Shown one piece after another: positions 35,924-56,831 of a stretch of 64,000 nucleotides of DNA; the first letter of the stretch is position 1; each line of letters opens with the position of its first letter. The DNA is from Flavimarina sp. Hel_I_48 (GTDB lineage: Bacteria > Bacteroidota > Bacteroidia > Flavobacteriales > Flavobacteriaceae), in NCBI RefSeq assembly GCF_000733945.1, contig NZ_JPOL01000002.1:2481001-2545000 (forward strand), in the 5' to 3' direction. The notes under the pieces are model-generated. The model made no database searches. It saw only the letters and a list, made by a program, of their open reading frames with translations, and was not told where the DNA came from. A program made the translations under genes and the position numbers.

Positions 35924-36490
35924 ATGGAAAAGAAATTATTTATAAAAAATATGGTGTGTAATCGCTGTATTAAAACAATCCAGAGTGATGTTGAAACATT
36001 AGGGATTCACTTAAAGCATATTGAATTGGGTTCTATTATTTACGAAGAGAAATCTATAGATGATTTTGAAAATATAAAAAATGTTTTAGAAAACAATGGT
36101 TTCGAAATTTTACTGGCGCAAGACCAGCAATTAGTAGAGCAAGTTAAAATTGAACTTATTAAATTATTACAAAAATTACCACTTCAATTAAATAAAACGC
36201 TGTCCAAGCATTTGGAAAGTAAATTAAACCTTGAGTACTCAAAAATCAGTAAAATATTTTCTGTTACGGAGCATATTACCATAGAAAAATACTTTATAAA
36301 ACTCAAGATAGAAAGAGTGAAAGAGCTGATTCAATTACAAGAGGGTAATTTTACGGAGATAAGTCAGCTGCTTGATTACAGTAATGTAAATCATTTAAGT
36401 AGGCTGTTTAAAAGTGAAACTGGTATGAGTCTGACTAATTATAAGAATAATCAAAAAAGTATTAGAAACCCTTTAGATCAAATAAGGTAG
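35924..36490 (+). CDS. HMA-like domain fused to AraC-type DNA-binding domain, copy 1
   Basis: Predicted one-component metal sensor of 188 residues. Residues 1-66 resemble a heavy-metal-associated (HMA) ferredoxin-like domain with the Cu(I)-type motif MVCNRC (about 11-16). Residues about 95-180 are an AraC-type double helix-turn-helix, with EISQLLDYSNVNHLSRLFKS near 145-164 and TGMSLTNY. It lacks the cupin domain usual in AraC regulators. It follows the TolC-like gene by 4 bp and precedes the multicopper oxidase. A paralogue lies at 56265-56831. Copper-responsive activation is inference. Confidence 0.75.
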   Translation: MEKKLFIKNMVCNRCIKTIQSDVETLGIHLKHIELGSIIYEEKSIDDFENIKNVLENNGFEILLAQDQQLVEQVKIELIKLLQKLPLQLNKTLSKHLESKLNLEYSKISKIFSVTEHITIEKYFIKLKIERVKELIQLQEGNFTEISQLLDYSNVNHLSRLFKSETGMSLTNYKNNQKSIRNPLDQIR

Positions 36491-36554
36491 ATAACAACCA
36501 TAATTATGACACAAACTTCTCATAATCAATATTAATTTTAAAAAAAGTAATCTT

Positions 36555-38942
36555 ATGAAAAAAATAAGCTATGCATTTATTCTTTTGTTACTGTGTACCT
36601 ATACAGCATCTGCACAGTCCGTGGAAGGTAATGTCGATAATCTACCCGTTCACGAATACACGTTGACCCTAAAGGAAGAAATGGTTAATAAAGCCGGTAA
36701 AGAAGTAAAAGGGATGACCGTCAACGGAGGTATTCCAGGGCCAACGCTCGAATTTACCGAAGGGGAGTACGCAGTAATCTATGTAAAAAATGAAATGAGC
36801 GTGGAGACATCCATCCATTGGCACGGCTTGTTGTTGCCCAATTTTTATGATGGGGTACCCTACCTTTCTACACCGCCCATAGAACCCGGTAAAACACTAA
36901 AATATGAATTCGCAATAAAGCAAAACGGCACCTATTGGTACCATTCCCATACAATGTTGCAGGAACAGAGCGGTGTTTACGGCTCAATTGTAATACAGCC
37001 CAAAGAAAAAACCTTGGAGTATGATAAAGAGCAGGTTTTGGTACTATCTGACTGGACCAACGAAAAACCGCGGGATGTACTTCGGTTTTTAAAGCGAGGT
37101 ACAGAATGGTACAATATAAGAAAAGGAACAGCTACGCCGCTTAACCAAGTAATTGCAAGGGGCGCATTTGGGGCGCAATTAAATTTTTGGAGACAGCGTA
37201 TGGAAAGTGCAGATGTGGCAGATGTGTATTACCCAGCGTTCTTAATTAATGGAGAAGAAAAAGTGGAGTACCCCGAGTTTAAACCTGGCGAAAAAGTGCG
37301 CCTTCGCATTATAGACGGCTCTGCTTCTACTTCGTTCTGGATGGCCTTTGGCGGCCCTGACCCTTTGCTTGTCTCGGCAGACGGTAAAGATGTAGTACCG
37401 GTTAAGCATAACAAGACATTTATAGGGGTCGCTGAAACCTATGATTTTATCGTAACCATACCGGAGAACGGCAAACTGGAATATAAAATTATGGCCCAAG
37501 ACGGCTCTGGTACCGCAACGGCATACCTAGGCCAAGGACCTATTGTTGCTGCACCCGATGTATCCAAACCTGATAAAATAGGGATGATGCAACAAATGGC
37601 CAAAATGAAAATGAAAATGGGTGCACCCGCTTTAAAGTTCCGACCAGGCAAAGATGAGCGTTACGAGATGAAAGAAAAATGGGGAATGCAGATGGAAGGA
37701 ATGAAAGATATGGATATGGGTACAATGAATATGGACAAGTCCAATATGAAGGGTATGGAAATGAAGAAGCATAAAATGGACGAAATGCAAATGGATATGA
37801 AAAAGGATTCAATGCAGATGGACCATTCCAAAATGGCAGGGATGGACACAAAAATGGATACCAAAATGAAAAAGGCCTCTCAAATGGATGATATGAAAAT
37901 GGACGAAGCAGATGGAATGCAGGGAATGAATATGTTTTCAGAGTATAACTATGACTACTTGAAATCGCCGGAGAAGACCAATTATGACCCAGATGTTCCT
38001 GTAACGGATATCCTATTAAACCTTACCGGGAATATGCAGCGCTATATCTGGAGTTTGAATGGGGTTCCTCTATCTGAAGCAGATAAAATAAAAATCAAGG
38101 GAGACGAAGTAACTAGGATTACCTTCAATAACCTGACTATGATGCACCACCCAATGCACCTACACGGTCATTTTTTTAGGGTCATTAACGAAAATGGGGA
38201 ATACTCACCCTTAAAACACACAGTCAATGTTCCACCAATGAAACAAGTTACCATTGAATTTTATGGTGATGAATATGGCGATTGGTTTTTCCATTGTCAT
38301 ATTCTATACCATATGATGGGAGGTATGGCGCGTATTGTAAGTTATGATACCCCTAGGGATCCAAGGTTGAAGGAATATCCCGTATCTAAACTTATTGACG
38401 AGACCGACCAGTTCTATTCCTACGGAATGATAGATGCCGCATCACATATGACCACTTTGAACCTTATATCTTCAAATATCCGAAACCAATTCAGTTTGAG
38501 GGGCGAATATGGTTGGAACAGGAATATGGAGGTTGAAGCTGCCTACGATAGATACCTCTATGATTATCTAACCGTTTTTGGCGGTGTAAATGTCGAGAAC
38601 GAAATGGAGGATAGCCTTGAAGAAATAACAACAACAGCTATAGCAGGGATACGATACCTTACGCCCTACTTATTTACGTTGGATGTGAGGATGGATAGTA
38701 AGCTACGCCCGCAGATTAGCTTAAGCCGTGCTATTACCATTTTCCCTAGAACTATTGTTTTTGGGATGTACGAGTACCAAGCAGATTTTGGGTGGGTAGA
38801 TGACCTGCCTCAAGGAGATAATTTCAAAAAAGAGATTACTTGGAGTACGGGTGTTGAATATCTTTTATCCAAAAATTTCTCATTGATGGGAAGTTATGAT
38901 AACCGTTTTGGTGCAGGTGGAGGATTATCACTAAGATTTTAA
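36555..38942 (+). CDS. Multicopper oxidase fused to a PcoB/CopB-like barrel
   Basis: Exported oxidase of 795 residues expected to convert Cu(I) to less toxic Cu(II) outside the cytoplasm. After a signal peptide (ending ASAQ) come the copper ligands HWH (88-90) and HSH (130-132), a Met-rich stretch (about 343-460) with about 35 Met, then HPMHLHGH (about 531-538) and HCHILYHMMGGM (about 579-590). The tail (about 615-795) is a separate beta-rich region ending GGGLSLRF, resembling PcoB/CopB outer-membrane barrels. PcoA and PcoB are normally two proteins. It lies after the first HMA-AraC gene. Confidence 0.88.
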   Translation: MKKISYAFILLLLCTYTASAQSVEGNVDNLPVHEYTLTLKEEMVNKAGKEVKGMTVNGGIPGPTLEFTEGEYAVIYVKNEMSVETSIHWHGLLLPNFYDGVPYLSTPPIEPGKTLKYEFAIKQNGTYWYHSHTMLQEQSGVYGSIVIQPKEKTLEYDKEQVLVLSDWTNEKPRDVLRFLKRGTEWYNIRKGTATPLNQVIARGAFGAQLNFWRQRMESADVADVYYPAFLINGEEKVEYPEFKPGEKVRLRIIDGSASTSFWMAFGGPDPLLVSADGKDVVPVKHNKTFIGVAETYDFIVTIPENGKLEYKIMAQDGSGTATAYLGQGPIVAAPDVSKPDKIGMMQQMAKMKMKMGAPALKFRPGKDERYEMKEKWGMQMEGMKDMDMGTMNMDKSNMKGMEMKKHKMDEMQMDMKKDSMQMDHSKMAGMDTKMDTKMKKASQMDDMKMDEADGMQGMNMFSEYNYDYLKSPEKTNYDPDVPVTDILLNLTGNMQRYIWSLNGVPLSEADKIKIKGDEVTRITFNNLTMMHHPMHLHGHFFRVINENGEYSPLKHTVNVPPMKQVTIEFYGDEYGDWFFHCHILYHMMGGMARIVSYDTPRDPRLKEYPVSKLIDETDQFYSYGMIDAASHMTTLNLISSNIRNQFSLRGEYGWNRNMEVEAAYDRYLYDYLTVFGGVNVENEMEDSLEEITTTAIAGIRYLTPYLFTLDVRMDSKLRPQISLSRAITIFPRTIVFGMYEYQADFGWVDDLPQGDNFKKEITWSTGVEYLLSKNFSLMGSYDNRFGAGGGLSLRF

Positions 38943-38960
38943 TGACTAAAAAATAAAACG

Positions 38961-39155
38961 ATGGACTACAATTGGGATTTCTTAACCATTTTCGGTGTTA
39001 TTATTCTAGGTGTTTTCATCTATGCAGGAGGAAAGAAAATAAAGCGGACTAAAAGTTCAAAGGCTATGGATGTCCTTGATGAAAGGTACGCTAAAGGAGA
39101 GATAACCAAAGAGGAGTATGAAGAAATTAAGCAGGCTATAGGCTCAAAGAAATAA
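38961..39155 (+). CDS. Small SHOCT-domain membrane protein
   Basis: Sixty-four residues: one membrane helix (about 8-24) and a C-terminal SHOCT domain (about 36-62, MDVLDERYAKGEITKEEYEE). It lies 18 bp after the multicopper oxidase gene. The family is common in copper clusters but its role is unknown. Confidence 0.85.
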   Translation: MDYNWDFLTIFGVIILGVFIYAGGKKIKRTKSSKAMDVLDERYAKGEITKEEYEEIKQAIGSKK

Positions 39156-39274
39156 AAAAAAGAAGCAATCCAAAAATCTGTTAGACATAGCACTATGTAA
39201 AAAAAAATTAAGCTGTGTAAACAGGTATAACAATAAATTAAAATCAAATATTAACTATTAAAATCGAAATTAAA

Positions 39275-39862
39275 ATGAAAAAATTAAAAATGACCGTCGG
39301 TATTTTAGTAATGACCTTAACCCTTACGGCTATATCCTGTAAGGACGGAAAAAAAGATGAACCAGCTGCACCTATGAGCAATGAGATGTACCAAGAGTCT
39401 ATGGATGACAAAGATGATATGGCAATGAGTGACAACCAAGACGCAAAAGCAGAAGCAATCCTGAAAGATTATTTCAACTTGAAAGATGCACTTGTAGGCG
39501 ATGACAATGATAAGGCAAAAGAATTGGGAGCAACGCTTGCAAGTACTTTTGGAAATTTTGATGCATCCAGCTATTCAGATAGTGAGCAACAGGAACTCAA
39601 GGATATTATGGAAGATGCCACAGAACACGCAGAACATATTTCAGAAAGTGATATAGCACACCAGCGAGAACATTTTAAAATCATAAGTAAGGATGTAACA
39701 GATATGGTTGCTATAACCGGTACAGAAAACACCTTGTATCAACTATTCTGCCCAATGTATGATGGAGGTAGTAATTGGTTAAGTATGAGCAAGGACGTTA
39801 AGAATCCTTATTATGGAAGTAAAATGTTGACCTGTGGTGAAATGCAAAAGGAAATCAATTAA
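39275..39862 (+). CDS. DUF3347 lipoprotein
   Basis: Exported protein of 195 residues with a lipobox-like AISC (Cys22), an acidic Met-rich linker (about 30-60) and a DUF3347 domain (about 62-195). The domain keeps [30 protein letters not shown] and [12 protein letters not shown]; the Cys, Met and His suggest a metal site. The same domain forms the tail of CusB and the protein at 40339-40899. It abuts the haem-binding-domain gene. Periplasmic copper handling is inferred. Confidence 0.85.
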
Positions 39863-40315
39863 ATGAAAATTTTAAAAATCATAGCAATAATAGCACTGGT
39901 AGGGTTTGTGGGGATTCAATTTATTCCCACGGAACGCAATCAAAGTTATACGGTTCCCGAAACTGATTTTATGTTGGTACATAATGTTCCTGAAACTATT
40001 CAGAAAAAATTACAGGTATCCTGCTATGATTGTCACAGTAACAATACGCAATATCCTTGGTATAATAAGATTCAACCCGCTGCTTGGTTTTTGGAAGACC
40101 ACATTAAAGAAGGCAAGGCCGAACTTAATTTTAACGAATGGGATTCGCTTTCAAGCCGAAGAAAATCAAGTAAACTTCGATCAATTATCAAACAGATAGA
40201 AAGCGGAGAAATGCCTTTGGATTCTTACACTTTGATACATAAAGATGCTAAGTTTTCTGAAGCGGAGGCAGAAGAATTAATCAATTTTATCACACAATTA
40301 AAAGATAGTTTATAA
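39863..40315 (+). CDS. Haem-binding-domain protein (single CxxCH)
   Basis: Exported or membrane-anchored protein of 150 residues with one N-terminal hydrophobic segment (about 5-20) and CYDCHSN near 53-59, the c-type haem attachment site of the Haem_bd family (followed by [15 protein letters not shown]). It starts directly after the DUF3347 stop codon. It may carry electrons in periplasmic metal redox chemistry, but this is inference. Confidence 0.85.
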
Positions 40316-40338
40316 ACAATAATTTAAAAATAATAAAA

Positions 40339-40899
40339 ATGAAAAATTTAAAAATGAGTATAGCAGTAATGCTATTGTTAGCAGTTTCTTTTACCAACGC
40401 CCAGGAAAAAGAAAAAATGAACCACAAGCACGGTGAAATGGAAATGGATCATAGTAAAATGAAAATGGACAAAATGAATCCAGCGGCAGAAACGGTTCTT
40501 GCCGATTATTTTATGTTGAAAGATGCTTTGGTAGGCGATGACACCAAGAAAGCGGCACAATCAGGTTCTAAATTGGTAGCCTCTCTTAAAAAATTCGATA
40601 AGAGTAGTTACTCAAAAGAACAACAAAAAGAGCTGGCCGATATCATAGAAGATGCTACCGAGCACGCAGAACATATTTCTGAAAGTGCGATAGACCACCA
40701 ACGCGAGCACTTTAAAACGTTAAGTAAGGATATTACTGATATGGTAGCTATTACGGGTACAAAAAGCACGTTATATGAACAATTTTGCCCAATGTACGAT
40801 AAAGGAAGTGCTTGGTTAAGTACAAGTAATGAAGTAAAAAACCCCTACTATGGCAGCAAAATGCTTAAATGTGGGAAAGTTCAAAAGACAATTCAGTAA
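40339..40899 (+). CDS. DUF3347 protein, second stand-alone copy
   Basis: Exported protein of 186 residues (signal peptide ending TNAQ). A His/Met-rich segment [17 protein letters not shown] (about 30-46) precedes the DUF3347 domain (about 50-186), which has the same [12 protein letters not shown] and KMLKCG motifs as the copy at 39275. The two are clearly duplicates with different linkers; this one has no lipobox and is probably soluble in the periplasm. Confidence 0.85.
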
Positions 40900-40955
40900 A
40901 GTTGTAATCCTTTTGACCAAAATCAAGAGAATTAAGCAACCAACAATAATCAAAG

Positions 40956-41387
40956 ATGAGGACTAAAATAATCAAACTCTTTTTGCGACTTGCAATATCA
41001 ATCGGATTTTTATCGGCAGTAGCTGATAGATTTGGATTGTGGAACAAAGATGTTTCTGTGTGGGGGAATTGGGATAATTTTCTTAACTACACACAACAGA
41101 TAAATCCTTGGATTCCGGACTCATTAATTTCAACAATCGGAATTATTGCAACCGCAGCTGAAATTATTTTTGCATTCTTCTTGATAATTGGATTTAAAAC
41201 AGAATTGTTCGCAAAATGGAGTGGATTTTTACTGCTACTATTTGCGCTTTCAATGACATTTTCCACTGGAATAAAAGGAGCATTAGACTTTTCAGTCTTT
41301 ACAGCTTCTGCTGGAGCTTTTGCGTTAAGCCTAATGAAAGAAAAGTATATGGAATTGGACAGCCTAATTGCAAAAGGAAATAATTGA
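40956..41387 (+). CDS. DoxX-like membrane protein
   Basis: Membrane protein of 143 residues with four predicted helices and the general DoxX pattern (AISIGFLSAVADRFGLW near the start). No catalytic motif is visible. It follows the second DUF3347 gene by 56 bp and ends the first tight group of the copper region; two structured repeats come next. Confidence 0.7.
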   Translation: MRTKIIKLFLRLAISIGFLSAVADRFGLWNKDVSVWGNWDNFLNYTQQINPWIPDSLISTIGIIATAAEIIFAFFLIIGFKTELFAKWSGFLLLLFALSMTFSTGIKGALDFSVFTASAGAFALSLMKEKYMELDSLIAKGNN

Positions 41388-41558
41388 GTGTAAATAAACA
41401 AAGTAAGAAACCGATAATATGGTAGTAGGAAGTTTAAATATGGCAAAATACAAAAGACTATTCAATAGGTAATCCCTTCCCTAAGCATCTTTTGTTGCTC
41501 TGGTTTATTAGTTAACAGAAGTAAATAAGATGTCTGGGATATCTTGGGTAGTCATTAA

Positions 41559-41620
41559 GTCCTGTCGTGGGAAGGAAAACAATGTTGATGGTTAGTGTTA
41601 ATTCCTTCCCAGGTCAGGCA
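41559..41620 (+). repeat. Structured repeat A
   Basis: Imperfect palindrome: CCTG...GGGAAGG, a loop with TGTTGATGGTTAGTG, CCTTCCC...CAGG, then GGCA. Same plan as repeats B, C and D: outer helix, inner helix and a conserved loop sequence. Confidence 0.65.
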
Positions 41621-41629
41621 AAAATTTAA

Positions 41630-41695
41630 GTCCTAATAAGAGAGAGGGCACATACTTTTGGTTGGTTAGTGAAGCCCTTTCTCTTAATTAGGCAC
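41630..41695 (+). repeat. Structured repeat B
   Basis: CCTAAT pairs with ATTAGG, and AAGAGA-G-AGGGC pairs with GCCCT-T-TCTCTT; the loop keeps TTGGTTGGTTAGTG. The inner helix differs wholly from that of A, C and D yet still pairs, which is compensatory change. Confidence 0.65.
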
Positions 41696-41797
41696 AAATA
41701 AAATAGTATGAAATGAGCCATACAAAAAAGTTGATAACAAGCGAAATGTTGATTGGCCAATTACATCTGATAATTAAAAATAAATAAATATCAACAG

Positions 41798-41935
41798 ATG
41801 AAAGATTGTTGTAAAACCGGTAGCGAAACCAAACAAAAGAGAAGTGGCTTCAAAAAATGGTTCAATTATACCATTTATGCCATTATAGCCATTATTGTGA
41901 TAGGTGTATTGATCTTGCAATTAACAGGTGATTAA
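41798..41935 (+). CDS. Small 45-residue membrane protein with N-terminal CC
   Basis: Begins MKDCCKTGSETKQKR and continues into a single membrane helix (about 24-42). Same strand and 16 bp before the DUF2231 gene. The CC pair facing the cytoplasm in a copper region suggests metal contact, but nothing more can be said. Confidence 0.55.
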   Translation: MKDCCKTGSETKQKRSGFKKWFNYTIYAIIAIIVIGVLILQLTGD

Positions 41936-41951
41936 TTTAAAACTATATAAA

Positions 41952-42626
41952 ATGAAATCTAAAAAAATAATTTTCACCGTATTGATGTTAGCCTTGTTTG
42001 GAGGTTTTTCGACGGTATTTGCTGATAGTAATTTTATTGTTTCTGAAACTAAAACCGACATCAAGGATGAGAAATCACTTTCTATTTTTGAAACAAGCAG
42101 TCCAATTTCTGTCTCACAAGACCATACTGAAGCCGGTTTGGACGATTTCCCTAATCTGCATCCATTAGTTGTACACTTCCCGATTGTACTGCTTTTATTG
42201 GCAGTTTTGTTACAGCTCATCCAGCTGTTCGTTTTAAATCGCACACTGGATTGGGTCATTTTACTAACAGTAGGATTCGGATTTATCGGAGCTTACGTAG
42301 CAGGTACACTGGTGCACCCACATACCGAAGGACTTACAGAAACCGCAAAAAAGGTCTTGGAACTGCACGACAAATATGCAGATTGGACTTTATGGGCAAG
42401 TGCTTTGGCAGCCCTATTAAAAATAGTAAGCCTCTTCTGGTACAAATTAAAGCGAGGTTTTGAAATTGGGGTATTTGTAGTTATGGCTTTTGCAGGATAT
42501 TCAGTAGCACAGGCAGGACACTATGGTTCACAGCTCGTGCATATTGAAGGAGTTGGCCCACAGGGGAAATATCTTGGTAACGAAAACGAAGAAGGTCACG
42601 GAGAAAGTGATGAACATTCACATTAA
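41952..42626 (+). CDS. DUF2231 membrane protein
   Basis: Membrane protein of 224 residues starting at ATG 41952 (MKSKKIIFTVLML, signal peptide). The DUF2231 domain with four helices begins NLHPLVVHFPIVLLLLAVLL (about 66-85), with conserved His. The C-terminus is His/Glu-rich (EEGHGESDEHSH). DUF2231 members are thought to relate to haem or redox chemistry in membranes. It precedes the glutamate-synthase-like gene by 9 bp. Confidence 0.82.
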   Translation: MKSKKIIFTVLMLALFGGFSTVFADSNFIVSETKTDIKDEKSLSIFETSSPISVSQDHTEAGLDDFPNLHPLVVHFPIVLLLLAVLLQLIQLFVLNRTLDWVILLTVGFGFIGAYVAGTLVHPHTEGLTETAKKVLELHDKYADWTLWASALAALLKIVSLFWYKLKRGFEIGVFVVMAFAGYSVAQAGHYGSQLVHIEGVGPQGKYLGNENEEGHGESDEHSH

Positions 42627-42635
42627 TACTGAAAA

Positions 42636-44162
42636 ATGAGAAAAGGATTTATTATAACCGCTATATTTTTAGTTGCTGCATATATCGTTATGGTATTTTG
42701 GCATCCCCATTTGTGGTGGATTGGATTGATTATCCTTCCTTTACTCGTTCTCGGTCTTGTGGACTATTTTCAAGAATCAAATAATATTAGGAGAACCTAC
42801 CCTTTGCTTGGTAGAATCACAAATCTTCTTGAGGAGCAACGCCACGTTATTCAGGAAACATTATTGCTCAACCGTACCGAAGGGCAACCCTTTACTTTAA
42901 TTCAAAAGGAAATTGTCTATAAAAGAGCTGCCGATGCGCTTATAAATCAACCTTTTGGAACACAGATTCCGTATGACAAAGTGGGGCGCGAGTGGTTTAC
43001 CCATTCCACATATCCTGCAAAACAAATCAATGACGACTTTAGAGTTCTTATAGGAAGTTCCCACTGCTTAAAACCTTACTCTGCCAGCATTCTCAACCTT
43101 GCGGGAATGAGTTTTGGTTCCATAAGCAAAAATGCTACCCTTGCTTTTAACGGTGGTGCGAAAATAGCAGGTTTTGCTCAAAACACCGGCGAAGGTGGCT
43201 TTACACCCTATCATCAAGAATACGGTGCAGATATTATCTTTCAGTTTGGAACAGGCTATTTTGGATGTCGTGATGCAGAAGGAAATTTTGACGCCAAAAA
43301 ATTCGCCGATATCGCAACCAACGATGTAGTGAAAATGATTGAAATAAAAATATCGCAAGGTGCCAAACCTGGCTTTGGGGCAATTTTGCCGGCAAAGAAG
43401 AACACAAAGGAAATTGCCAAATTCAGGGATGTGGAGCAGGGAACGGAAATTCATTCCCCAGCCTTTCATTCGGCATTCGACAATGACGTTGAAATGCTAC
43501 GCTTCATTAGAAAATTGAGAAAACTCTCTAAAGGAAAACCTGTGGGAATAAAGCTGTGCATTGGTCAACAAGATGAGTTTGAAAGAATGGTTCAAACCTT
43601 TGCCGAAAAGCAAAATTGCCCAGACTTTATAGCCATTGACGGTGCCGAAGGTGGCTCTGGTGCTGCCCATATGGAATCCTTACATTGGGCCGGTATGCCA
43701 ATAATTGAAGCCATCCATTTCGCAAACGGCATTCTTAAAAAGTATGGGTTGCGAGATGAAATTAAAGTAATGGCAGCTGGTAAAATTATATCCGCTTTTG
43801 ATATCTATAGAATGATGGCGCTCGGCGCAGATGCCTGTTATAGCGCAAGAGGGATGATGTTTGCCTTGGGCTGTGTGCAATCGCTAAAATGCAATTTGGA
43901 TACCTGCCCTACGGGAATTACCACAATGGTGCCTTCCCGAGTTGCATCCATTGTTGTAAAAGATAAAAAAACCAAAGTTGCCAACTATCATAAAAATACC
44001 ATCGAAGGTTTTAAGGAACTGCTAAAATCAATGGGTATTGAAAATAGAAAGGGTATCGACAAAAAGTATATTGTCCGCCGAATCAATGAGAATGAGACCA
44101 AGACATATCAAGAGTTATACTCAAATGGATTGAATGGTCGAAAAATAAAAAGTAATGGGTAA
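42636..44162 (+). CDS. FMN-binding glutamate-synthase-family protein, membrane-anchored
   Basis: Protein of 508 residues: two N-terminal membrane helices (about 4-42), then the FMN/Fe-S domain of the GltB large subunit (about 90-480). Motifs: LAGMSFGSISKNATLAFNGG near 152-171, GAEGGSGAA near 337-345 and the Cys cluster CVQSLKCNLDTCPTG (about 412-426), as in the 3Fe-4S ligands. The amidotransferase half is absent, so the substrate is uncertain. The end overlaps the YceI gene by 8 bp. Confidence 0.85.
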   Translation: MRKGFIITAIFLVAAYIVMVFWHPHLWWIGLIILPLLVLGLVDYFQESNNIRRTYPLLGRITNLLEEQRHVIQETLLLNRTEGQPFTLIQKEIVYKRAADALINQPFGTQIPYDKVGREWFTHSTYPAKQINDDFRVLIGSSHCLKPYSASILNLAGMSFGSISKNATLAFNGGAKIAGFAQNTGEGGFTPYHQEYGADIIFQFGTGYFGCRDAEGNFDAKKFADIATNDVVKMIEIKISQGAKPGFGAILPAKKNTKEIAKFRDVEQGTEIHSPAFHSAFDNDVEMLRFIRKLRKLSKGKPVGIKLCIGQQDEFERMVQTFAEKQNCPDFIAIDGAEGGSGAAHMESLHWAGMPIIEAIHFANGILKKYGLRDEIKVMAAGKIISAFDIYRMMALGADACYSARGMMFALGCVQSLKCNLDTCPTGITTMVPSRVASIVVKDKKTKVANYHKNTIEGFKELLKSMGIENRKGIDKKYIVRRINENETKTYQELYSNGLNGRKIKSNG

Positions 44163-44703: not shown

Positions 44704-44732
44704 AATAGATTGTTGAATTAAATAAATGGATT

Positions 44733-46645: not shown

Positions 46646-46653
46646 CAGCAACA

Positions 46654-48512: not shown

Positions 48513-48589
48513 CTATGTGTTTTCTATATTCAAAAAGAATGATAAGAGTATTTATGATATTTAAAACAGGCCAAGAGAACATAAAATAA

Positions 48590-48660: not shown

Positions 48661-48669
48661 TATTATAAT

Positions 48670-48963
48670 ATGAAAAGCTACGATACACTTTCTGAAACTA
48701 TGGCTCATTTACAGGCTAAAGGCTACACTGTTGATTTCAATTTGAAAGAGAAACATCTGGAATGTAATGCTCTAAAGTTGAAATTCCATCCAGAAGATTT
48801 TGAGGTGGACGAGATGCATCGTTTTGAAGGAATGAGTAGCACAGATGACAATAGTGTACTATATGCCATTTCTTCCAAAAATGGAATAAAAGGCTTATTG
48901 GTGGATGCTTATGGGGTTTACTCTGAAAATATTTCTGAGGCAATCCGAAAAAAATTAAGGTAA
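48670..48963 (+). CDS. Conserved 97-residue protein, copy 2
   Basis: Paralogue of the gene at 22547-22840: nearly the same C-terminal half (RFEGMSSTDDNS, YAISSKNGIKGLLVDAYGVY, ENISEAIRKKLR). The Cys pair of copy 1 is reduced to one (LECNALKL), so those Cys are not a strict metal site. It is preceded by structured repeat D and followed by a permease gene. Unknown function. Confidence 0.8.
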   Translation: MKSYDTLSETMAHLQAKGYTVDFNLKEKHLECNALKLKFHPEDFEVDEMHRFEGMSSTDDNSVLYAISSKNGIKGLLVDAYGVYSENISEAIRKKLR

Positions 48964-49037
48964 TTTGAAACATATATATAACATATAAAAAGTGACCCGC
49001 AACCAATATTGTAATCAGATTAAATAGAAATTTCGAG

Positions 49038-50393
49038 ATGAAACCATTAAAAATAAATACCCAAAAGCTCTCATTATTAGGCTCTGTATCTTTAGGTACA
49101 GGCGTAATGATTGGTGCAGGTATTTTTGTTTTAATGGGGCAGATAGCCGAATTAGTCGGCGATTTATTTCCTATTGCTTTTATCGCAGGCGCAGTTGTAG
49201 TAGGCTTTAGCTCCTATTCGTATGTTAAATTTTCAAACGCCTATCCTTCTTCTGGAGGTGTTGCTAAATTTTTGACAAAGGCCTATTTACCAGGTACACT
49301 TGCTGGTTCATTTTCTTTGCTGATGTATGTATCAATGGTTGTCTCAGAAAGTTTAGTGGCAGGTACTTTTGGGGCGTATGCGTTACGACTGTTTCCGCAA
49401 GGATATGAAGGTTATGCATCTGCATTGGGTGTATTGCTTATTGTTGCTGCATATATCATCAATATTTCGGGTAACAAGATTATTGAGACTACCGCTACCA
49501 TTACTGCAATTATTAAAGTAGTGGGTATTGCAGTTCTTGCTATATCAGGATTGGTTATTTCTGGTTTACCCACAATCACAGGTACTTATAGTGCTGCCAA
49601 TGGCCAATCCCTGCCTGAAGGTTTTGGATTTATTGCCGCATTGGCCTTGTCTATCCTTGCATACAAAGGATTTACGACCATTACCAATCAAGGTGGCGAT
49701 ATAAAAAATCCTCATAAAAATGTAGGGCGTTCCATAATTATATCAATAATCGTTTGTACGGTTATCTATGTTGTTTTGGCATTATCGGTTGCTGGCGGAT
49801 TGAGTATTGAAGAAATTATAATAGCAAAAGATTATGCTCTCGCAGCAGCAGCAAAACCTCTATTTGGCGAATGGGGTTCAACGCTAACTATTTTACTAGC
49901 CATTGTTGCAACAGTTTCCGGTGTAATTGCCAGCGTATATTCTGCCTCGCGAATGTTGGGTATGTTAAGCAATATGAAACAAGTTCCTGATATGAACAGA
50001 ATGAAGCAACTTAAAAATCCTTCGCTGATTTTTACTGTTTCTTTAGCGATACTTTTGACTGTTTTGTTCGATTTAACTCGCATAGCTTCCATTGGTGCTA
50101 TTTTCTATTTGATAATGGACATTGCTATTCATTGGGGACTTTTTAAATATTTGAAAAAGGAAGTAAAATTCAACCCGATTATTCCAATAATTGCCATACT
50201 GTTGGATGTTGTTATTTTGGCAGCATTTATCTATTTAAAATATGTAAACGACCCATTTGTACTAATAGTTGCTGCAATTGGTATTGCCCTCATTTTTCTT
50301 TCTCAATTTATTTTTATGAAATCGCATACAGATAAAGACGGAAATATGAATATGGGAATGGAAAACAGTGAAAAAGAACAAATGAAAATGTAA
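49038..50393 (+). CDS. APC-family amino-acid permease
   Basis: Membrane transporter of 451 residues with 12 predicted helices and the APC start motif LGTGVMIGAGIFVLMG near 20-35. The C-terminus is Met-rich (NMNMGMENSEKEQMKM), unusual for the family and suggestive of adaptation to a copper setting. It precedes copA by 14 bp. The natural substrate is not readable. Confidence 0.85.
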   Translation: MKPLKINTQKLSLLGSVSLGTGVMIGAGIFVLMGQIAELVGDLFPIAFIAGAVVVGFSSYSYVKFSNAYPSSGGVAKFLTKAYLPGTLAGSFSLLMYVSMVVSESLVAGTFGAYALRLFPQGYEGYASALGVLLIVAAYIINISGNKIIETTATITAIIKVVGIAVLAISGLVISGLPTITGTYSAANGQSLPEGFGFIAALALSILAYKGFTTITNQGGDIKNPHKNVGRSIIISIIVCTVIYVVLALSVAGGLSIEEIIIAKDYALAAAAKPLFGEWGSTLTILLAIVATVSGVIASVYSASRMLGMLSNMKQVPDMNRMKQLKNPSLIFTVSLAILLTVLFDLTRIASIGAIFYLIMDIAIHWGLFKYLKKEVKFNPIIPIIAILLDVVILAAFIYLKYVNDPFVLIVAAIGIALIFLSQFIFMKSHTDKDGNMNMGMENSEKEQMKM

Positions 50394-50407
50394 AAATAAC
50401 AGATACT

Positions 50408-52945
50408 ATGAAACACACCTATAAAATACACGGAATGACCTGCAATGGTTGTCGAAATCACGTAGAAGGAACACTTTCCAAAGTGAAAGGTGTCTCAAAG
50501 GCTACTGTGAATTTAGCAAAAGCTGAAGCTACCATTGAAATGGAATCACATATTCCTATTGAGAAATTCCAAGATGCCCTTAAAAAAGAAGGTGGTACTT
50601 ATTCTATCCACAAATCTGGAGAGCGACATCATCAAAACGATACCGCCGGAGTTGATGCTGAGCGTAGTCGAAGTACGAAAGCAAAAAATGAAAAACCTAA
50701 AGGTAAAGGAACTGGCACTTTTTACTGTCCGATGCATTGTGAGGGAGACAAAACATATGAAAAAACTGGAGACTGTCCTGTCTGCGGAATGGATTTAGTT
50801 GAAGAGCAAAATTTATCTGCAAAAACTTCTGAACAATGGACTTGCCCAATGCACCCGGAAATTGTAAAAGATGAACCTGGAGCCTGCCCAATCTGTGGGA
50901 TGGACTTAGTCCCAATGGAAGCAGATAGTTCAGCCGAAGAAAAGACCTATAACAAATTACTCAAGAAATTCTGGATTGCAGTCGCCTTTACCTTACCTAT
51001 TTTCTTAATCGCAATGAGCGATATGATTCCGAATAATCCGTTATATACGGTAATGAAGCAAAAAAACTGGAACTGGATTCAGCTTGCACTTTCAATTCCT
51101 GTGGTGTTTTATGCTACGTGGATGTTCTTTGAACGTGCCTATAAAAGCATCAAAACCTGGAACCTCAATATGTTTACCCTAATCGGCATTGGTGCTGGCG
51201 CAGCGTGGTTATTCAGCGTATTCGGTATGCTTTTTCCCGATTTTTTCCCGGCACAGTTCAAAACAGAATCTGGTGCCGTTCACGTATATTATGAAGTATC
51301 CACTATTATTTTGACCTTGGTGCTCTTGGGTCAGGTTTTGGAAGCACGTGCCCACGGCAAAACCAATTCAGCAATAAAGGAATTGCTAAAGCTCGCGCCA
51401 AACAAGGCCATACTAGTCAAAGATGGCAAGGAAGAAGAGGTTACGATTGATAGCATTAAATTGGGCGATATCCTACGGGTGAAACCAGGCGAAAAAATTC
51501 CAGTTGATGGCGTGATTTCCGAAGGTAGTACAACGGTCGATGAATCTATGATTACAGGCGAACCTATTCCCGTAAACAAAGCGGCAAATGACAAAGTTAC
51601 CAGTGGCACCATCAACGGCAACCAATCTTTTTTGATGAAAGCCGAAAAGGTGGGTGCAGATACCCTACTGTCCCAAATTATCCAAATGGTCAATAATGCC
51701 AGTCGCAGTCGTGCACCAATCCAAAAATTGGCGGATACCGTCTCGGGATATTTTGTACCCATAGTTGTCCTTATTTCCATTATCACATTTGTGGTTTGGG
51801 CTATTTTTGGTCCGGAACCCGTCTATGTTTATGCCTTTGTAAATGCAATTGCAGTATTGATTATCGCCTGTCCCTGTGCCTTGGGCTTGGCAACACCAAT
51901 GTCCATTATGGTCGGTGTTGGTAAGGGCGCACAAAATGGTGTGCTCATAAAAAATGCCGAAGCTTTGGAAAAAATGGACAAGGTGGATACACTTATTATC
52001 GATAAAACAGGAACCATAACAGAAGGCAAACCAACGGTTGAAAAAGTCGGAGCCTTCGGAACTAATTTTTCAGAAAAAGAAGTGCTTCAATACATCGTTT
52101 CCCTAAACAGCAAAAGCGAGCATCCGCTTGCCGAAGCAACTGTAAAATATGGTAAAGAAAAGAATGTTGAGTTTTTGAGCGCTGAAAAGTTTAGCGCAGT
52201 TACCGGAAAAGGTGTTGAAGGAAACATCAACGGGAAAAAAGTGGATTTAGGGAATTCCAAAATGATGGCATACGCCAAGGCTGAATTAACTTCGGAAATG
52301 GAAACCGAAGCACAAAGTTTTCAAAAGCAAGGAAAAACAGTTTCATACCTATCCATCGATTCAAAAGTTGTGGGATATGTTGTCATTGGCGACAAAATAA
52401 AGGCGACCAGCGCCAAAGCGATCAAAGCACTTCAAGACAAAGGTATCGCAGTAATAATGCTTACTGGCGACAATCACGATACTGCCCAAGCGGTCGCAAA
52501 AGAATTAAATCTTGCTGATTTTAAAGCAGGAATGTTGCCCGAAAACAAACTTCAGGAAGTAGAAAAATTACAGAACAGCGGAAAAGTTGTAGCAATGGCA
52601 GGCGACGGCATCAATGATGCGCCAGCCTTGGCAAAAAGTGATGTTGGTATCGCAATGGGAACAGGAACAGATGTTGCCATTGAAAGTGCAATGATAACCT
52701 TGGTAAAAGGCGATTTGCACGGTATTGTCAAGGCACGGGAATTGAGCGACGGTGTAATGCGTAACATCAAGCAAAACCTATTTTGGGCTTTAGGATATAA
52801 CATTTTAGGAATCCCAATCGCAGCAGGTGTTTTGTTCCCTATTTTCGGGTTGTTATTATCACCAATGATAGCGGCTTTGGCAATGAGCTTTAGTTCAGTT
52901 TCCGTTATTATGAACGCTTTGCGGTTACGTTCGTTAAAACTTTAA
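50408..52945 (+). CDS. copA: Copper-exporting P-type ATPase CopA (CPC), with extra metal domains
   Basis: P1B-1 ATPase of 845 residues. In order: HMA domain (1-68, GMTCNGC), a linker, two short heavy-metal-binding domains of the CPMH...CPxCGMDL type (105-131 and 144-170), then the ATPase core with CPC (488-490), DKTGT (Asp532), a SEHP motif and GDGINDAPAL. CPC marks Cu(I)/Ag(I) export. The linker holds a REP-like DNA insert at 50657-50677 encoding AERSRSTK. It precedes the PepSY gene by 2 bp. Confidence 0.93.
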   Translation: MKHTYKIHGMTCNGCRNHVEGTLSKVKGVSKATVNLAKAEATIEMESHIPIEKFQDALKKEGGTYSIHKSGERHHQNDTAGVDAERSRSTKAKNEKPKGKGTGTFYCPMHCEGDKTYEKTGDCPVCGMDLVEEQNLSAKTSEQWTCPMHPEIVKDEPGACPICGMDLVPMEADSSAEEKTYNKLLKKFWIAVAFTLPIFLIAMSDMIPNNPLYTVMKQKNWNWIQLALSIPVVFYATWMFFERAYKSIKTWNLNMFTLIGIGAGAAWLFSVFGMLFPDFFPAQFKTESGAVHVYYEVSTIILTLVLLGQVLEARAHGKTNSAIKELLKLAPNKAILVKDGKEEEVTIDSIKLGDILRVKPGEKIPVDGVISEGSTTVDESMITGEPIPVNKAANDKVTSGTINGNQSFLMKAEKVGADTLLSQIIQMVNNASRSRAPIQKLADTVSGYFVPIVVLISIITFVVWAIFGPEPVYVYAFVNAIAVLIIACPCALGLATPMSIMVGVGKGAQNGVLIKNAEALEKMDKVDTLIIDKTGTITEGKPTVEKVGAFGTNFSEKEVLQYIVSLNSKSEHPLAEATVKYGKEKNVEFLSAEKFSAVTGKGVEGNINGKKVDLGNSKMMAYAKAELTSEMETEAQSFQKQGKTVSYLSIDSKVVGYVVIGDKIKATSAKAIKALQDKGIAVIMLTGDNHDTAQAVAKELNLADFKAGMLPENKLQEVEKLQNSGKVVAMAGDGINDAPALAKSDVGIAMGTGTDVAIESAMITLVKGDLHGIVKARELSDGVMRNIKQNLFWALGYNILGIPIAAGVLFPIFGLLLSPMIAALAMSFSSVSVIMNALRLRSLKL
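50657..50677. repeat. REP-like element inside copA
   Basis: The segment contains GCTGAGCGTAGTCGAAG, a repeat core common in intergenic DNA of Bacteroidota. Here it lies in frame in the linker of CopA, between the HMA and the first CPMH domain. Confidence 0.55.
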
Positions 52946-52947
52946 AG

Positions 52948-53661
52948 ATGGTGAAAAGGAAAACCGCACTAAAAATACGAAAGACCCACAGATATTTGGG
53001 GCTCTTTTTGGGGGTACAGTTCCTGTTTTGGACCATTAGCGGAATGTATTTCAGTTGGACAAACATAGACGACATTCACGCTGACCAATTCTGTAATTTA
53101 GATTACGTGCCCAAAGCCTTTGATGATTTAATAAGTCCTTCACAAATAAACAATCCTGAAGGCATTGGAAGTATCGAAATTAGGGACATCAACAACGAGC
53201 CTTATTACTGGATAAACAATCAAAAATTGTACAGTGCAAAAACTGGGAAAGCAAAAAAAAATATTACGGAAGAAGAGGCCTTGTCTGTTGCCAAAAACTA
53301 TATGAAAGATGGTTTGAAAGTCGCCAACATCGAAAAAATAACCGAAGTGGACGACTATCACGAATATCGGGAAAAGCTATTGCCAGCCTATGTTATTTCA
53401 TATGATACCGATGAAGCTCTTAATGCTTATGTTTCGGTAACAGACGGAAAATTCCAGACTGTAAGGCATCGAGCGTGGCGTTGGTTCGACTTTTTATGGA
53501 TGACCCACACAATGGATTATGACACGCGCGACAATTTCAATACCATTGTATTAAGGGCGTTTTCGCTCTTGGGATTGATTACGGTGTTAAGCGGATTCCT
53601 GCTGTGGTACACCTCCTCGCCAACCATTAGAAAATTAAAAAAGAAAATAATTAAATCATAA
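52948..53661 (+). CDS. PepSY-type membrane protein
   Basis: Membrane protein of 237 residues: N-terminal helix (about 15-35, HRYLGLFLGVQFLFWTISGM), a periplasmic PepSY-like region (about 90-170) and a C-terminal helix (about 205-225). This is a short relative of PepSY/PiuB membrane proteins, often near metal or haem redox genes. It lies 2 bp after copA and 17 bp before the DUF305 gene. Confidence 0.78.
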   Translation: MVKRKTALKIRKTHRYLGLFLGVQFLFWTISGMYFSWTNIDDIHADQFCNLDYVPKAFDDLISPSQINNPEGIGSIEIRDINNEPYYWINNQKLYSAKTGKAKKNITEEEALSVAKNYMKDGLKVANIEKITEVDDYHEYREKLLPAYVISYDTDEALNAYVSVTDGKFQTVRHRAWRWFDFLWMTHTMDYDTRDNFNTIVLRAFSLLGLITVLSGFLLWYTSSPTIRKLKKKIIKS

Positions 53662-53678
53662 CCAAAAACTCTAAAACA

Positions 53679-54158
53679 ATGAAAAATTCAAATCAACACA
53701 CAAACAAAGGCAATTACACAAAATTTATTTTGATGCTTGTCGCATCTTTTATTGCAATGTACATCACGATGTATCTAAATAGTTATGCGTTAGACCACGT
53801 ATATTTTAGTTTAACCAGATTCTATATGAGTTGTTTGGGTATTGCAGCAATGGCAGTAATAATGTGGTTTTTTATGCGGAAAATGTATCAAAACAAGAAA
53901 AAGAACATCGCTATTTTATTAGGTAGCTTGGTGCTATTTTTAGGCGCACTTGGTTTGGTTAGGGCACAAAGCCCAATCATTGGCGATATTCTGTGGATGA
54001 AAGCAATGATTCCCCATCACTCAATTGCAATTTTAACAAGTGAAAGAGCCGATATCAAAGACCCTGAAGTGCGCAAACTGGCTGATGATATTATCAAAGC
54101 ACAACGTAAAGAAATTGGAGAAATGAAAGCAATGATAAAGCGTTTGCAAGCAGAATAA
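53679..54158 (+). CDS. DUF305 membrane protein
   Basis: Protein of 159 residues with three helices (about 16-90) and a C-terminal DUF305 segment, MKAMIPHHSIAILTSERA near 107-124. The Met/His motif is the likely metal ligand set; DUF305 proteins are frequent in copper clusters. Between the PepSY gene and cusB. Confidence 0.88.
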   Translation: MKNSNQHTNKGNYTKFILMLVASFIAMYITMYLNSYALDHVYFSLTRFYMSCLGIAAMAVIMWFFMRKMYQNKKKNIAILLGSLVLFLGALGLVRAQSPIIGDILWMKAMIPHHSIAILTSERADIKDPEVRKLADDIIKAQRKEIGEMKAMIKRLQAE

Positions 54159-54167
54159 TAATAATTA

Positions 54168-54201
54168 CCAAAACCTAACTGGTCTTAAAATCTGTTGGGT
54201 T
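54168..54201 (+). terminator. Hairpin after the DUF305 gene
   Basis: AAAACCTAAC and GTTGGGTTTT pair across a 14-nt loop, 10 bp after the stop codon. A terminator or attenuator before cusB is possible. Confidence 0.4.
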
Positions 54202-54226
54202 TTATAAAGAAATAAAAAAATATACT

Positions 54227-56011
54227 ATGAAAAAATACATCATTTATACCGCAATTTTAGCCATAGGATTGGTCTTGGGCTATGTCTTTTTTGGCCCTTC
54301 TGCGGAAGGTTCCGTAAACAGCAAGAAAGTAACAGATTTGAGCGAAGACGTTAACCACTCCGAAGAACATCAAATGTGGACCTGTTCAATGCACCCACAG
54401 ATTATGCAACCAGAACCTGGCGACTGCCCAATATGCGGTATGGATTTAATTCCCGCCGAAACTGGTGCGGAAGGGCTTGCAATGAACGAAATAAAAATGA
54501 GCGACAATGCAATGGCACTGGCGAATATCCAAACTACAATTGTAGGAAATATTTCAGGAACCGACGATAACAAAATAACACTTTCCGGAAAAATAATGGC
54601 CAACGAAGAAGCCAATGCGGTACAGGCAAGCTATTTTGAAGGACGTATTGAAAAGTTGAATGTCAATTTCACGGGCGAAGAAGTACGAAAAGGACAGTTG
54701 TTGGCAACGATTTATGCACCAACGCTCGTTGCTGCCCAACAAGAACTTTTAACTGCTTCTGACCTGAAAGAATCACAACCAGGTTTATACAAAGCAGTTC
54801 GAAACAAATTAAAATTGTGGAAACTTTCTGAAAGCCAAATAGACCAAATAGAAAGTTCTGGCAAGGTGCGGGAAAATTTTCCGATTTATGCAACTGTTTC
54901 AGGCACCGTTTCCCAAAAAATGGCAGAAGAAGGCGACTATGTAAAACAAGGCCAGCCCATTGTTAAAGTAAGTGATTTGGGTACTGTTTGGGCAATGTTT
55001 GACGCCTACGAAAGACAAATCTCGCAACTAAAGGAAGGTCAAAAGGTAACAATCACTAGTAACGCTTATCCCAATAAAGAATTTGAAGCATCAGTTTCAT
55101 TTATCGACCCTACTTTGAATACAAAGTCCAGAACTGTTTCAGTGCGCGCCACATTGAACAATAAGGAAAATCTATTAAAACCAGGAATGTTCGTAACCGC
55201 AAAAGTGGCAATGACAAAAGGCAATACTATGGAAATTGCGATAAGCATACCTGCAACGGCAGTAATGTGGACAGGCGAGCGCTCATTGGTGTACGTAAAG
55301 ACCAATCCCAATGAACCCGTTTTTGAAATGCAAGAAGTGACTTTGGGAACGAAAAATGGTGAGAACTATACCATTATCGAAGGGCTTTCTAACGGCGATG
55401 AAGTGGTAACCAACGGAACATTTACCGTAGATGCCGCTGCACAGTTACAAGGAAAAAAATCTATGATGAATGCATCAGGTGGTAAAACAATGACAGGTCA
55501 CGAAGGGCATTTGGGAATGGAAAATTTAAACAACACAGTTGATGCCGCCAAGCGTATGGATGTAGCTTCCAAATTCCAAGAGCAGCTCAAAACAGTTTTT
55601 GATGATTATATTATGCTTAAAACAGCATTGACAAACGACCAAAGTGAAAAAGCAAAAACGGCCGCACAGACCTTACAGAAAAGTTTAACACAAGTTGACC
55701 TTGCTTTGCTAAAGGATAAAAATGCGAATAACCACTGGGCGCAACTTGAAAAAGAATTGAAGGCTTCCTCAAATGAAATTGCCCAGACATCCGATATTAA
55801 AACCCAGAGAAATCATTTTATCAGTCTTTCAGCACACCTCATAAATGCAATGAAAGCGTTTGGCATCAACCAAGAAATTTACATAGATTTTTGTCCAATG
55901 GCAAATAATAATGAAGGCGCATATTGGTTGAGCACGGAAAAAGAAATACAAAATCCCTACTACGGACAAGCAATGCTAAACTGTGGTGAAGTAACAGAAA
56001 CCGTACAATAG
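54227..56011 (+). CDS. cusB: CusB-type RND adaptor with CPMH domain and C-terminal DUF3347
   Basis: Periplasmic adaptor joining the CusA pump to its outer channel. The 594 residues hold an N-terminal membrane anchor, a heavy-metal-binding motif WTCSMHPQI...CPICGMDL (51-74), the adaptor core (about 95-400) and a DUF3347 domain (about 440-594) with FCPMANNNEGAYWLS and AMLNCG. Most CusB proteins lack DUF3347; E. coli has the separate CusF instead, so this tail may be a built-in metal donor. cusA and its channel gene are about 20 kb upstream. Confidence 0.9.
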   Translation: MKKYIIYTAILAIGLVLGYVFFGPSAEGSVNSKKVTDLSEDVNHSEEHQMWTCSMHPQIMQPEPGDCPICGMDLIPAETGAEGLAMNEIKMSDNAMALANIQTTIVGNISGTDDNKITLSGKIMANEEANAVQASYFEGRIEKLNVNFTGEEVRKGQLLATIYAPTLVAAQQELLTASDLKESQPGLYKAVRNKLKLWKLSESQIDQIESSGKVRENFPIYATVSGTVSQKMAEEGDYVKQGQPIVKVSDLGTVWAMFDAYERQISQLKEGQKVTITSNAYPNKEFEASVSFIDPTLNTKSRTVSVRATLNNKENLLKPGMFVTAKVAMTKGNTMEIAISIPATAVMWTGERSLVYVKTNPNEPVFEMQEVTLGTKNGENYTIIEGLSNGDEVVTNGTFTVDAAAQLQGKKSMMNASGGKTMTGHEGHLGMENLNNTVDAAKRMDVASKFQEQLKTVFDDYIMLKTALTNDQSEKAKTAAQTLQKSLTQVDLALLKDKNANNHWAQLEKELKASSNEIAQTSDIKTQRNHFISLSAHLINAMKAFGINQEIYIDFCPMANNNEGAYWLSTEKEIQNPYYGQAMLNCGEVTETVQ

Positions 56012-56075
56012 TTTAAAACTATACTTAATTGGGTAGTTTAAATTAGTCATCTTGATTTTTTGAAGGAGAACGAGG

Positions 56076-56252
56076 ATGAGTGAGAGTAGAAGAAATAGAA
56101 GAAAAAATGACAGAAAGAAACATCAGCCTAAAAGTGATATTCCAAAAAAAGATAAAATTATAGCTTTAGTTGTGATAGTATTGATTTTTGTAGTTGCTGC
56201 AACAGCTGCCGTTTATTATTCTCTATACAAATCTGGATTAAAATTATTTTGA
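56076..56252 (+). CDS. Small basic single-helix membrane protein (58 residues)
   Basis: Too short for most gene callers. It reads MSESRRNRRKNDRKKHQP, then a Lys-rich stretch and one helix (about 30-50). A purine-rich GGAGAACGAGG precedes the ATG, an unusually good ribosome site for this host. It sits 12 bp before the second HMA-AraC gene. Confidence 0.55.
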   Translation: MSESRRNRRKNDRKKHQPKSDIPKKDKIIALVVIVLIFVVAATAAVYYSLYKSGLKLF

Positions 56253-56264
56253 AACAAGTACTAT

Positions 56265-56831
56265 ATGAATGAGACTATCCATATTAAAAATATGGTCTGC
56301 CCAAGATGTATCTCAGCAGTTTCCAATATTTTGGAACAACTTAAAATACTGTATGTTTCTATAAAATTGGGGGAGGTTAAATTAGTTTCATCGTTAAGTC
56401 CCAACACAAAAAATAGTCTTTCCAAAGCGCTTCAAAATTCAGGTTTTAGTTTGATTGACGACCGTAAAAGTCAACTTATTGAACAAATGAAAACATTGGT
56501 TGTAGATAAAATCCATCATTCTTCCGAGGAGCTCGATTTCAAATGGGCAGATATTGTTACAGGCGAACTTCACTTGGACTACAAATATTTAAGTTCACTT
56601 TTTTCGTCGGTAGAAAATATTACGTTCGAGCAGTACATCATAAACCAGAAAATTGAACGTGTTAAAGAACTTATAGTTTACGATGAATTAACCTTGAGTG
56701 AAATAGCATTTAAACTTCATTATAGTAGTGTTGCATACTTAAGCAATCAATTTAAAAAGGTTACAGGAATGACACCTACACAGTTTAAAAAAAGCACAAA
56801 TCAGAATCGTAAATATTTGGATAAAATATGA
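56265..56831 (+). CDS. HMA-like domain fused to AraC-type DNA-binding domain, copy 2
   Basis: Second predicted metal-sensing regulator, 188 residues. The N-terminal HMA-like domain has MVCPRC (about 9-14); the AraC part has ERVKELIVYDELTLSEIAFK (about 131-150) and VTGMTPTQFKK. Identity to copy 1 at 35924 is low outside the motifs, but length and order match exactly. It lies directly upstream of the copper-storage, copA and copZ genes, with candidate operator repeats in both of those promoters. Confidence 0.75.
   Translation: MNETIHIKNMVCPRCISAVSNILEQLKILYVSIKLGEVKLVSSLSPNTKNSLSKALQNSGFSLIDDRKSQLIEQMKTLVVDKIHHSSEELDFKWADIVTGELHLDYKYLSSLFSSVENITFEQYIINQKIERVKELIVYDELTLSEIAFKLHYSSVAYLSNQFKKVTGMTPTQFKKSTNQNRKYLDKI

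Follow-up and report, generated by a model that had tools for sequence, protein, structure and literature searches.

HMA-AraC proteins of Flavimarina sp. Hel_I_48 as probable copper-responsive regulators of adjoining copper genes, with relatives across Bacteroidota

CueR, the Cu(I) sensor of the MerR family, is a one-component, cytosolic regulator and activator of copA, and CsoR is an all-helical repressor. Atox1, CopZ and the HMA domains of CopA and ATP7B (PF00403) share a fold and an MxCxxC loop, usually G-M-T-C-x-x-C, and AraC/XylS activators (AraC, RhaR, MelR) join a C-terminal double helix-turn-helix (HTH) to a sugar-binding cupin. Here we describe two proteins that draw on the last two of these groups, encoded in a 64,000-nt stretch of the Flavimarina sp. 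Hel_I_48 genome (contig NZ_JPOL01000002.1, forward-strand positions 2,481,001 to 2,545,000; this whole stretch is the window below, numbered from its first base). In these HMA-AraC regulators the AraC-type double HTH is retained, a metal-type N-terminal domain stands where the cupin would be, and the loop reads N-M-V-C-x-R-C; they differ from Atox1 and CopZ in being fused to a DNA-binding domain, and from CueR in both DNA-binding family and metal domain. They would nonetheless resemble CueR as one-component, cytosolic regulators of copA, with activation, known for CueR, proposed here. CsoR (PF02583), unlike them in structure, likewise regulates copper ATPase operons in cis (general background and the part of PMC10141476 used here). 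The two proteins are:

35924..36490, + strand: HMA-AraC regulator 1, 188 aa, flanked by the genes for a TolC-like protein and a multicopper oxidase
56265..56831, + strand: HMA-AraC regulator 2, 188 aa; residues 1-66 modelled as ferredoxin-like with the MxCxxC loop at 10-15; a linker helix (67-85) leads to the double HTH, whose helices span 94-176

An earlier note, made from the letters alone, had described two 188-residue proteins with an MVCxRC metal-type loop, a C-terminal AraC double HTH and no cupin effector domain, and this description proved accurate. Both start with ATG, are 36% identical end to end and carry M-x-C-x-x-C at residues 10-15 (NMVCNRC, NMVCPRC); M10, C12 and C15 are without exception in a 24-row alignment (A1). 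The double-HTH model HTH_18 (PF12833) is matched above its Pfam cut-off of 33.6 bits by regulator 1 (37.2) and regulator 2 (61.8), all 73 rows of a second alignment (A2) match it at E ≤ 0.01, and by this domain both proteins belong to the AraC/XylS family. Neither has a Pfam match at E ≤ 1 to a cupin or to the CsoR profile PF02583, no MerR-type DNA-binding model was found among their Pfam matches at that level or among the NCBIfam matches listed, and their scores against the CopZ chaperone model (20.6 and 17.5 bits) stay below its cut-off of 91 bits. Regulator 1 has two sub-threshold Pfam matches to domains of unknown function (E ≤ 1).

Since the Pfam HMA model itself (PF00403, cut-off 24.8 bits) is not reached by regulator 2 (13.4 bits), gives no match in regulator 1 and is matched by just 9 of 73 relatives at E ≤ 0.01, the assignment of the N-terminal domain relies on profile similarity and fold. 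A profile of 43 N-terminal domains (A3), run against all PDB sequences, drew 37 distinct sequences at E ≤ 10, 34 of them HMA-type metal proteins by name; the top seven were all copper ATPases or CopZ (ATP7B best at 3.2e-7, CopA 2.7e-5, CopZ 1e-4). Aligned by hhalign with four N-terminal ATPase stretches (two from the window with CxxC and two from relatives without it), the N-domain profile gave E 5e-6 and a probability of 86. An AlphaFold2 model of regulator 2, built from 73 rows (mean predicted local distance difference test score 92.2, predicted TM-score 0.85), has the beta-alpha-beta-beta-alpha-beta ferredoxin-like fold that the earlier note had proposed to look for in residues 1-66 (strand 3-8, helix 13-25, strands 30-34 and 37-40, helix 46-58, strand 62-64), followed by a linker helix and the helices of two HTHs. 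The model covers regulator 2, and the membership of regulator 1 follows from alignment. By profile and predicted fold we thus assign the N-terminal domain to the HMA (Atox1/CopZ-like) type.

The same architecture is found elsewhere in Bacteroidota, strongly linked to copper genes, as the earlier note had proposed to look for. In a family sample, 75 of 149 genomes match regulator 2 as query (E ≤ 1e-12), and in a phylum sample 182 of 395 match profile A1 (E ≤ 1e-20), both counts including sister groups that lack the CxxC pair; a CxxC member is present in 60 of the 149. DNA coding for K-N-M-V-C-x-[R/S]-C occurs in at least 156 of the 395 phylum genomes, a lower bound for the CxxC type because K, N, M and V are fixed in the pattern, and the reversed control of this pattern was absent from the matches listed for those genomes. 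A scan of named genomes confirmed at least 548 relatives, from which 80 loci were retained; by record title these are Bacteroidota in the wide sense, including an Ignavibacteria metagenome-assembled genome (L113) and Rhodohalobacter (L079), with the exception of a bin named Thalassovita (L049), probably a mis-binned contig. At 1e-10, 32 plasmid records match, 16 of them Hymenobacter, counted whatever their loop. With five paralogues in one genome and the pattern in at least 156 phylum genomes, occurrence of the type is far beyond chance. A one-off fusion or annotation artefact is ruled out by the relatives throughout the family, named and phylum samples.

Members of the family sample fall into three groups: A, with CxxC; B, in which the first loop cysteine is replaced (MVSxRC); and C, in which the loop pair is absent and one cysteine often lies nearby; two odd rows read NMLCxCC. 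We tallied 134 loci, 129 of them distinct, leaving out at least four listed matches (G021:C1:729283, G022:C93:33144, G002:C12:1639555 and G144:C15:37266). Because group A is defined by its motif, conservation of its own cysteines is no result; clustering on trees and the link to context are. In a tree of 109 rows, which included the loop columns, groups B and C are each set off by a single branch (support 83 and 100), and in a second tree, made from the last 125 residues and so free of the HMA domain, the classes can be explained by 4 changes versus 36.7 with shuffled labels (B then 2, A 3). The cysteines thus do not vary freely among homologues (free variation would have refuted the idea of the earlier note, by its own terms), and where the pair is absent so is the copper linkage. 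Copper-type genes (homologues of the window ATPases, RND permease, outer membrane efflux protein, adaptor and multicopper oxidase) lie within 3 kb of 72 of the 85 group A members, none of 17 in B, none of 25 in C and neither odd row, full 3-kb flanks being present at 50, 15, 14 and 1 loci, respectively; for CxxC members against members without the pair (72/85 vs 0/42), Fisher's test gives 2e-22, relatives not being independent. At 1.5 kb, where 40 of the 42 controls have full flanks, the counts are 71/85 and 0/42. HMA-AraC architecture alone hence does not mean copper: sister groups without the metal loop exist.

Among the 80 named loci, an ATPase with a CPC motif is the next gene within 400 nt in 37, and 36 of these 37 have CPC, YNx4P and MxxSS, which we take to be the marks of Cu(I) pumps; the CPC ATPase is elsewhere in the locus in 18 further cases, and 7 loci end within 1.5 kb. 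NMVCxRC occurs in 79 of 79 named members (in the 80th, L066, the open reading frame (ORF) begins at MVCNRC), a conservation biased by the use of an NMVCxRC-type motif as one of two scan patterns, so that the family sample was used for the cysteines instead.

The sister groups have surroundings of their own, whose neighbour identities were read by eye from sequence. Group C (L148-L167, L231, L234-L236, L245) has a receiver-domain protein in 24 of 25 loci and a kinase-like gene in 21 of 25, within 3 kb and mostly just downstream; its matches to the DNA element described below precede other genes, some Dps-like by eye, and the group appears to form a regulon of its own. Group B (KYMVSxRC, first loop cysteine to serine; L037, L170, L173, L175, L177, L179-L181, L183, L184, L187, L188, L190-L194) has a small cupin-like gene within 3 kb in 12 of 17 loci. 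At L055, L057, L059, L063, L074, L078 and L093, the copper ATPases adjoining the regulator begin with N-terminal [GDN]VxSEHC, an HMA-like start without the first cysteine, and carry a second MxCxxC further along.

In the window itself, the earlier note had placed a copper efflux block beside each regulator, and both blocks are there. Regulator 1 lies downstream of a CusA/CzcA permease, flanked by the TolC-like and multicopper oxidase genes; regulator 2 has a CusB-like adaptor on one side and, on the other, a Csp1-like gene and then a Cu(I) ATPase, with another P1B ATPase upstream:

30953..34705, + strand: CusA/CzcA heavy-metal RND permease (TIGR00914 796 bits, cut-off 701)
34702..35919, + strand: TolC-like outer membrane efflux protein (scores under the family cut-offs)
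36555..38942, + strand: CopA-type multicopper oxidase (TIGR01480 E 2e-122, 410 bits, under the cut-off of 479)
50408..52945, + strand: Cu(I) P1B-1 ATPase that has an N-terminal HMA, in the upstream part of the second block (TIGR01511 593 bits, cut-off 397)
54227..56011, + strand: CusB/CzcB-like periplasmic adaptor (TIGR01730 151 bits, cut-off 95)
56975..57295, + strand: four-helix copper storage protein of Csp1 type, 106 aa, probable target gene of regulator 2 (TIGR04401 E 1.8e-11, 44.4 bits, under the cut-off of 100)
57530..59800, + strand: Cu(I) P1B-1 ATPase of CopA type, probable target gene of regulator 2 (TIGR01511 620 bits, cut-off 397; CPC, YNx4P and MxxSS by eye)

The genome encodes five full-length paralogues that have the loop; the window pair are two of these, and belong to two different subclades of the family tree. 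Among the genome's 24 HTH_18 places the five lie 1.8-14.5 kb from a P-type ATPase, 18 others on the same contig lie at least 30.9 kb away, and the last falls on contig C3, where no ATPase match exists.

The gaps between regulator and copA yielded a DNA element, new in this analysis, that is probably the target of HMA-AraC regulators. Expectation-maximisation on 41 such gaps of named loci, seeded by eye, gave a matrix of 36 positions and 25.6 bits with the consensus TAAATCTTAYAAATC-N5-CAAAATnYRYAACA, in which the half-sites TAYAA and YRYAA are spaced 21 bp; AraC half-sites next to a promoter have the same spacing. In 33 of the 41 gaps the top-scoring site begins within the stop codon or no more than 9 bases beyond it, and in many loci of a second subclade, to which regulator 1 belongs, the element starts 9 bases before the stop codon. 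Leave-one-out scores exceed 10 in 37 of 41 gaps versus 5 of 820 shuffled gaps, a slightly circular comparison in that site positions were taken from the full matrix, and TTTG follows the element at +22 or +23 bp in 36 of the 37 sites scoring above 10. At the relative L178 (7598-7654) three copies of the half-site follow one another every 21 bp, the third being imperfect. Elements 1 and 2 below are the two window sites above a matrix score of 9, and a clade-specific pattern allowing ≤3 mismatches finds these two only in the 4.14-Mb genome, both right after regulator 2 (reversed control 0):

56852..56887, + strand: operator-like element 1, preceding the Csp1-like gene (matrix score 26.4)
57455..57490, + strand: operator-like element 2, preceding the second copper ATPase, with TTTG at +23 (matrix score 13.0)
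36479..36514, + strand: possible degenerate operator across the final codons of regulator 1; by eye, the promoter-proximal half alone is recognisable

The -7 box of Flavobacterium psychrophilum sigma-A, as given in the part of PMC9723704 used here, is TAnnTTTG at -12 to -5; with the 22-23 bp spacing, simple arithmetic would have the element cover about -67 to -32. Unseeded motif searches of mixed upstream regions gave weak or drifting results, and an unseeded search of regulator tails recovered the coding C-terminus only. A short motif, TTCRGCATWTW, occurs 5 times in the window versus 0.8 expected, but 128 times in the genome (reversed control 21), and was dropped as a stand-alone operator.

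We consider it likely, at a probability of roughly 70%, that HMA-AraC is a directly copper-responsive regulator of the adjoining copper genes, and most likely an activator. This reading joins the domain make-up, the fold model, the copper context tied to the CxxC pair and the element with its nearly fixed promoter spacing. On it, a one-component cytosolic activator of transcription would bind Cu(I) through the MxCxxC loop of its N-terminal HMA domain; the copper-loaded form would most simply be a dimer joined by copper shared between two HMA domains, and this copper-induced pairing may set two AraC double-HTH units on the half-sites 21 bp apart. Occupied in this way, the element would hold the protein against the -33 region, where a class II activator is expected, a position that suggests activation. 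Because the element stands at or after the regulator's stop codon with copA next in many relatives, the regulator would switch on the downstream exporter. Of the window pair, regulator 2 would induce csp1-like storage and copA, and regulator 1 may serve the RND/multicopper oxidase block.

The placement of the element also admits the opposite sign of control: that the protein is a repressor whose apo-form occupies the -33 region until copper releases it. An element abutting that region would suit a polymerase block, but a nearly constant distance to the -7 box agrees better with polymerase contact than with a block, and most AraC-family proteins whose tandem half-sites extend to the -35 region are activators; of the alternatives this one stands best, and we think it unlikely. 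Slightly less likely again is a regulator that controls the copper genes without sensing copper, its HMA domain docking with that of CopA or of a chaperone and reading the partner's metal state. HMA domains do exchange copper by docking, and copA is the next gene in 37 of the 80 named loci, but copper linkage was seen only in members keeping the CxxC pair. We regard as improbable a CxxC pair that acts as a thiol/disulfide or electrophile switch, with no metal site, and induces the copper genes through oxidative stress; a protein relying on two thiols would agree with the loop cysteines being the sole cysteines in 74 of 79 named members, but not with a full MxCxxC set in an HMA fold that has metal-binding relatives, nor with adjoining window genes that are copper genes. 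Least probable, by a narrow step, is that the sensed metal is mainly another soft one such as Ag(I), Hg(II) or Zn(II), for although HMA domains are also found in ZntA and mercuric reductase (both among the PDB profile matches) and Ag(I) and Cu(I) are indistinguishable by sequence, 36 of 37 adjacent ATPases carry the three P1B-1 motifs and the multicopper oxidase and Csp1-like neighbours point to copper.

Other copper regulators of the phylum bear on the role that the directly copper-responsive HMA-AraC regulator might fill. CueR exceeds its curated cut-off in none of the 395 phylum genomes, with matches below it in 237 (best 137.6 of 147.4 bits); in the Flavimarina genome the best CueR match has E 1.2e-6. 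The CsoR family is present in 107 of the 395 and absent from the Flavimarina genome; 82 of the 107 belong to one family without an HMA-AraC match, and 9 of the 107 have an HMA-AraC family match (8 have KNMVCx[R/S]C DNA), a distribution so clustered by lineage that it is no test of independence. In the part of a survey of 76 marine bacteria used here, which covers few Bacteroidota at a strict E-value threshold, the copper regulators of Bacteroidota are two-component and extracytoplasmic function (ECF) types only (PMC10141476). A copper inventory of the flavobacterium Bizionia, in the part drawn on, lists MerR and CopY homologues without copper sites and names two ArsR-type candidates, the term AraC being absent from its main text (PMC11213822). 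We found no description of an HMA-AraC copper regulator in open-access titles and abstract openings; an earlier description in subscription journals is possible.

Several observations weigh against the copper-responsive reading or narrow it, among them the incomplete 3-kb flanks given above (full in 50 of 85 group A loci and 29 of 42 B and C controls). The strict copper set is absent from 13 of 85 CxxC family loci, and 18 of the 80 named loci lack an intact CPC ATPase, 11 of these 18 also lacking a homologue of the 13 queried window proteins, AraC-type aside. Element 1 has ATTG at +22 rather than an exact TTTG at +23, and the matrix accepts no site in the tail of regulator 1 (best -6.6, at another place than 36479..36514), so an operator for regulator 1 is not established. 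In the family sample, just 26 of 90 CxxC loci have a match of at least 15 (against 1 match in 0.92 Mb of shuffled A loci), and such matches are also present in 18 of 25 C loci and 2 of 17 B loci, so the element is not copper-specific. Scored by the matrix plus 3 when TTTG is in place, regulator tails reach 5 in 43 of 76 A, 2 of 14 B and none of 25 C, versus 14 of 360 other gene tails. Because groups B and C have the element too, it reflects the shared HTH half; it seems to go with that half, whereas the copper link goes with the half that carries CxxC. Proteins near CueR in some lineages, partly alongside the HMA-AraC family, mean that a vacancy for a copper sensor is not proven phylum-wide. 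HMA-AraC is possibly the main cytosolic copper sensor of many Bacteroidota. The wider combination, to which we give somewhat less than even odds, would have it as the principal such sensor of much of the phylum, an AraC activator for which an Atox1-like domain has become the input domain, working by copper-bridged HMA pairing on a 21-bp direct repeat that starts at or in the regulator's own stop-codon region, with rewired sister branches that retain the DNA half and the DNA element without the CxxC pair and in one case came to serve a receiver/kinase pair.

If the copper-responsive reading is right, HMA-AraC joins the list of copper sensor types and fills a copper-regulator gap in a large phylum, and the defined operator and promoter allow a direct test and could be used to build copper-inducible expression tools for Bacteroidota. 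Sister groups lacking the CxxC pair provide a natural control for gain or loss of a metal switch.

Smaller features adjoin the copper genes of the window. A 58-aa ORF at 56076-56252, with a basic N-terminus and one membrane helix by eye, is also found upstream of regulator 2 in orthologous loci; as it lies inside the 254-nt gap before regulator 2, that gap was not taken as a promoter region. Two related small cysteine-containing proteins are encoded at 30406-30849, preceding the CusA operon, and at 23356-23697, and their homologues recur near RND copper operons of relatives. At the edge of the copper block, a tyrosine-recombinase-like ORF (60949-62193, minus strand, by eye) stands beside an ORF of near-identical repeats (62416-62778), the two marking a possible mobile island.

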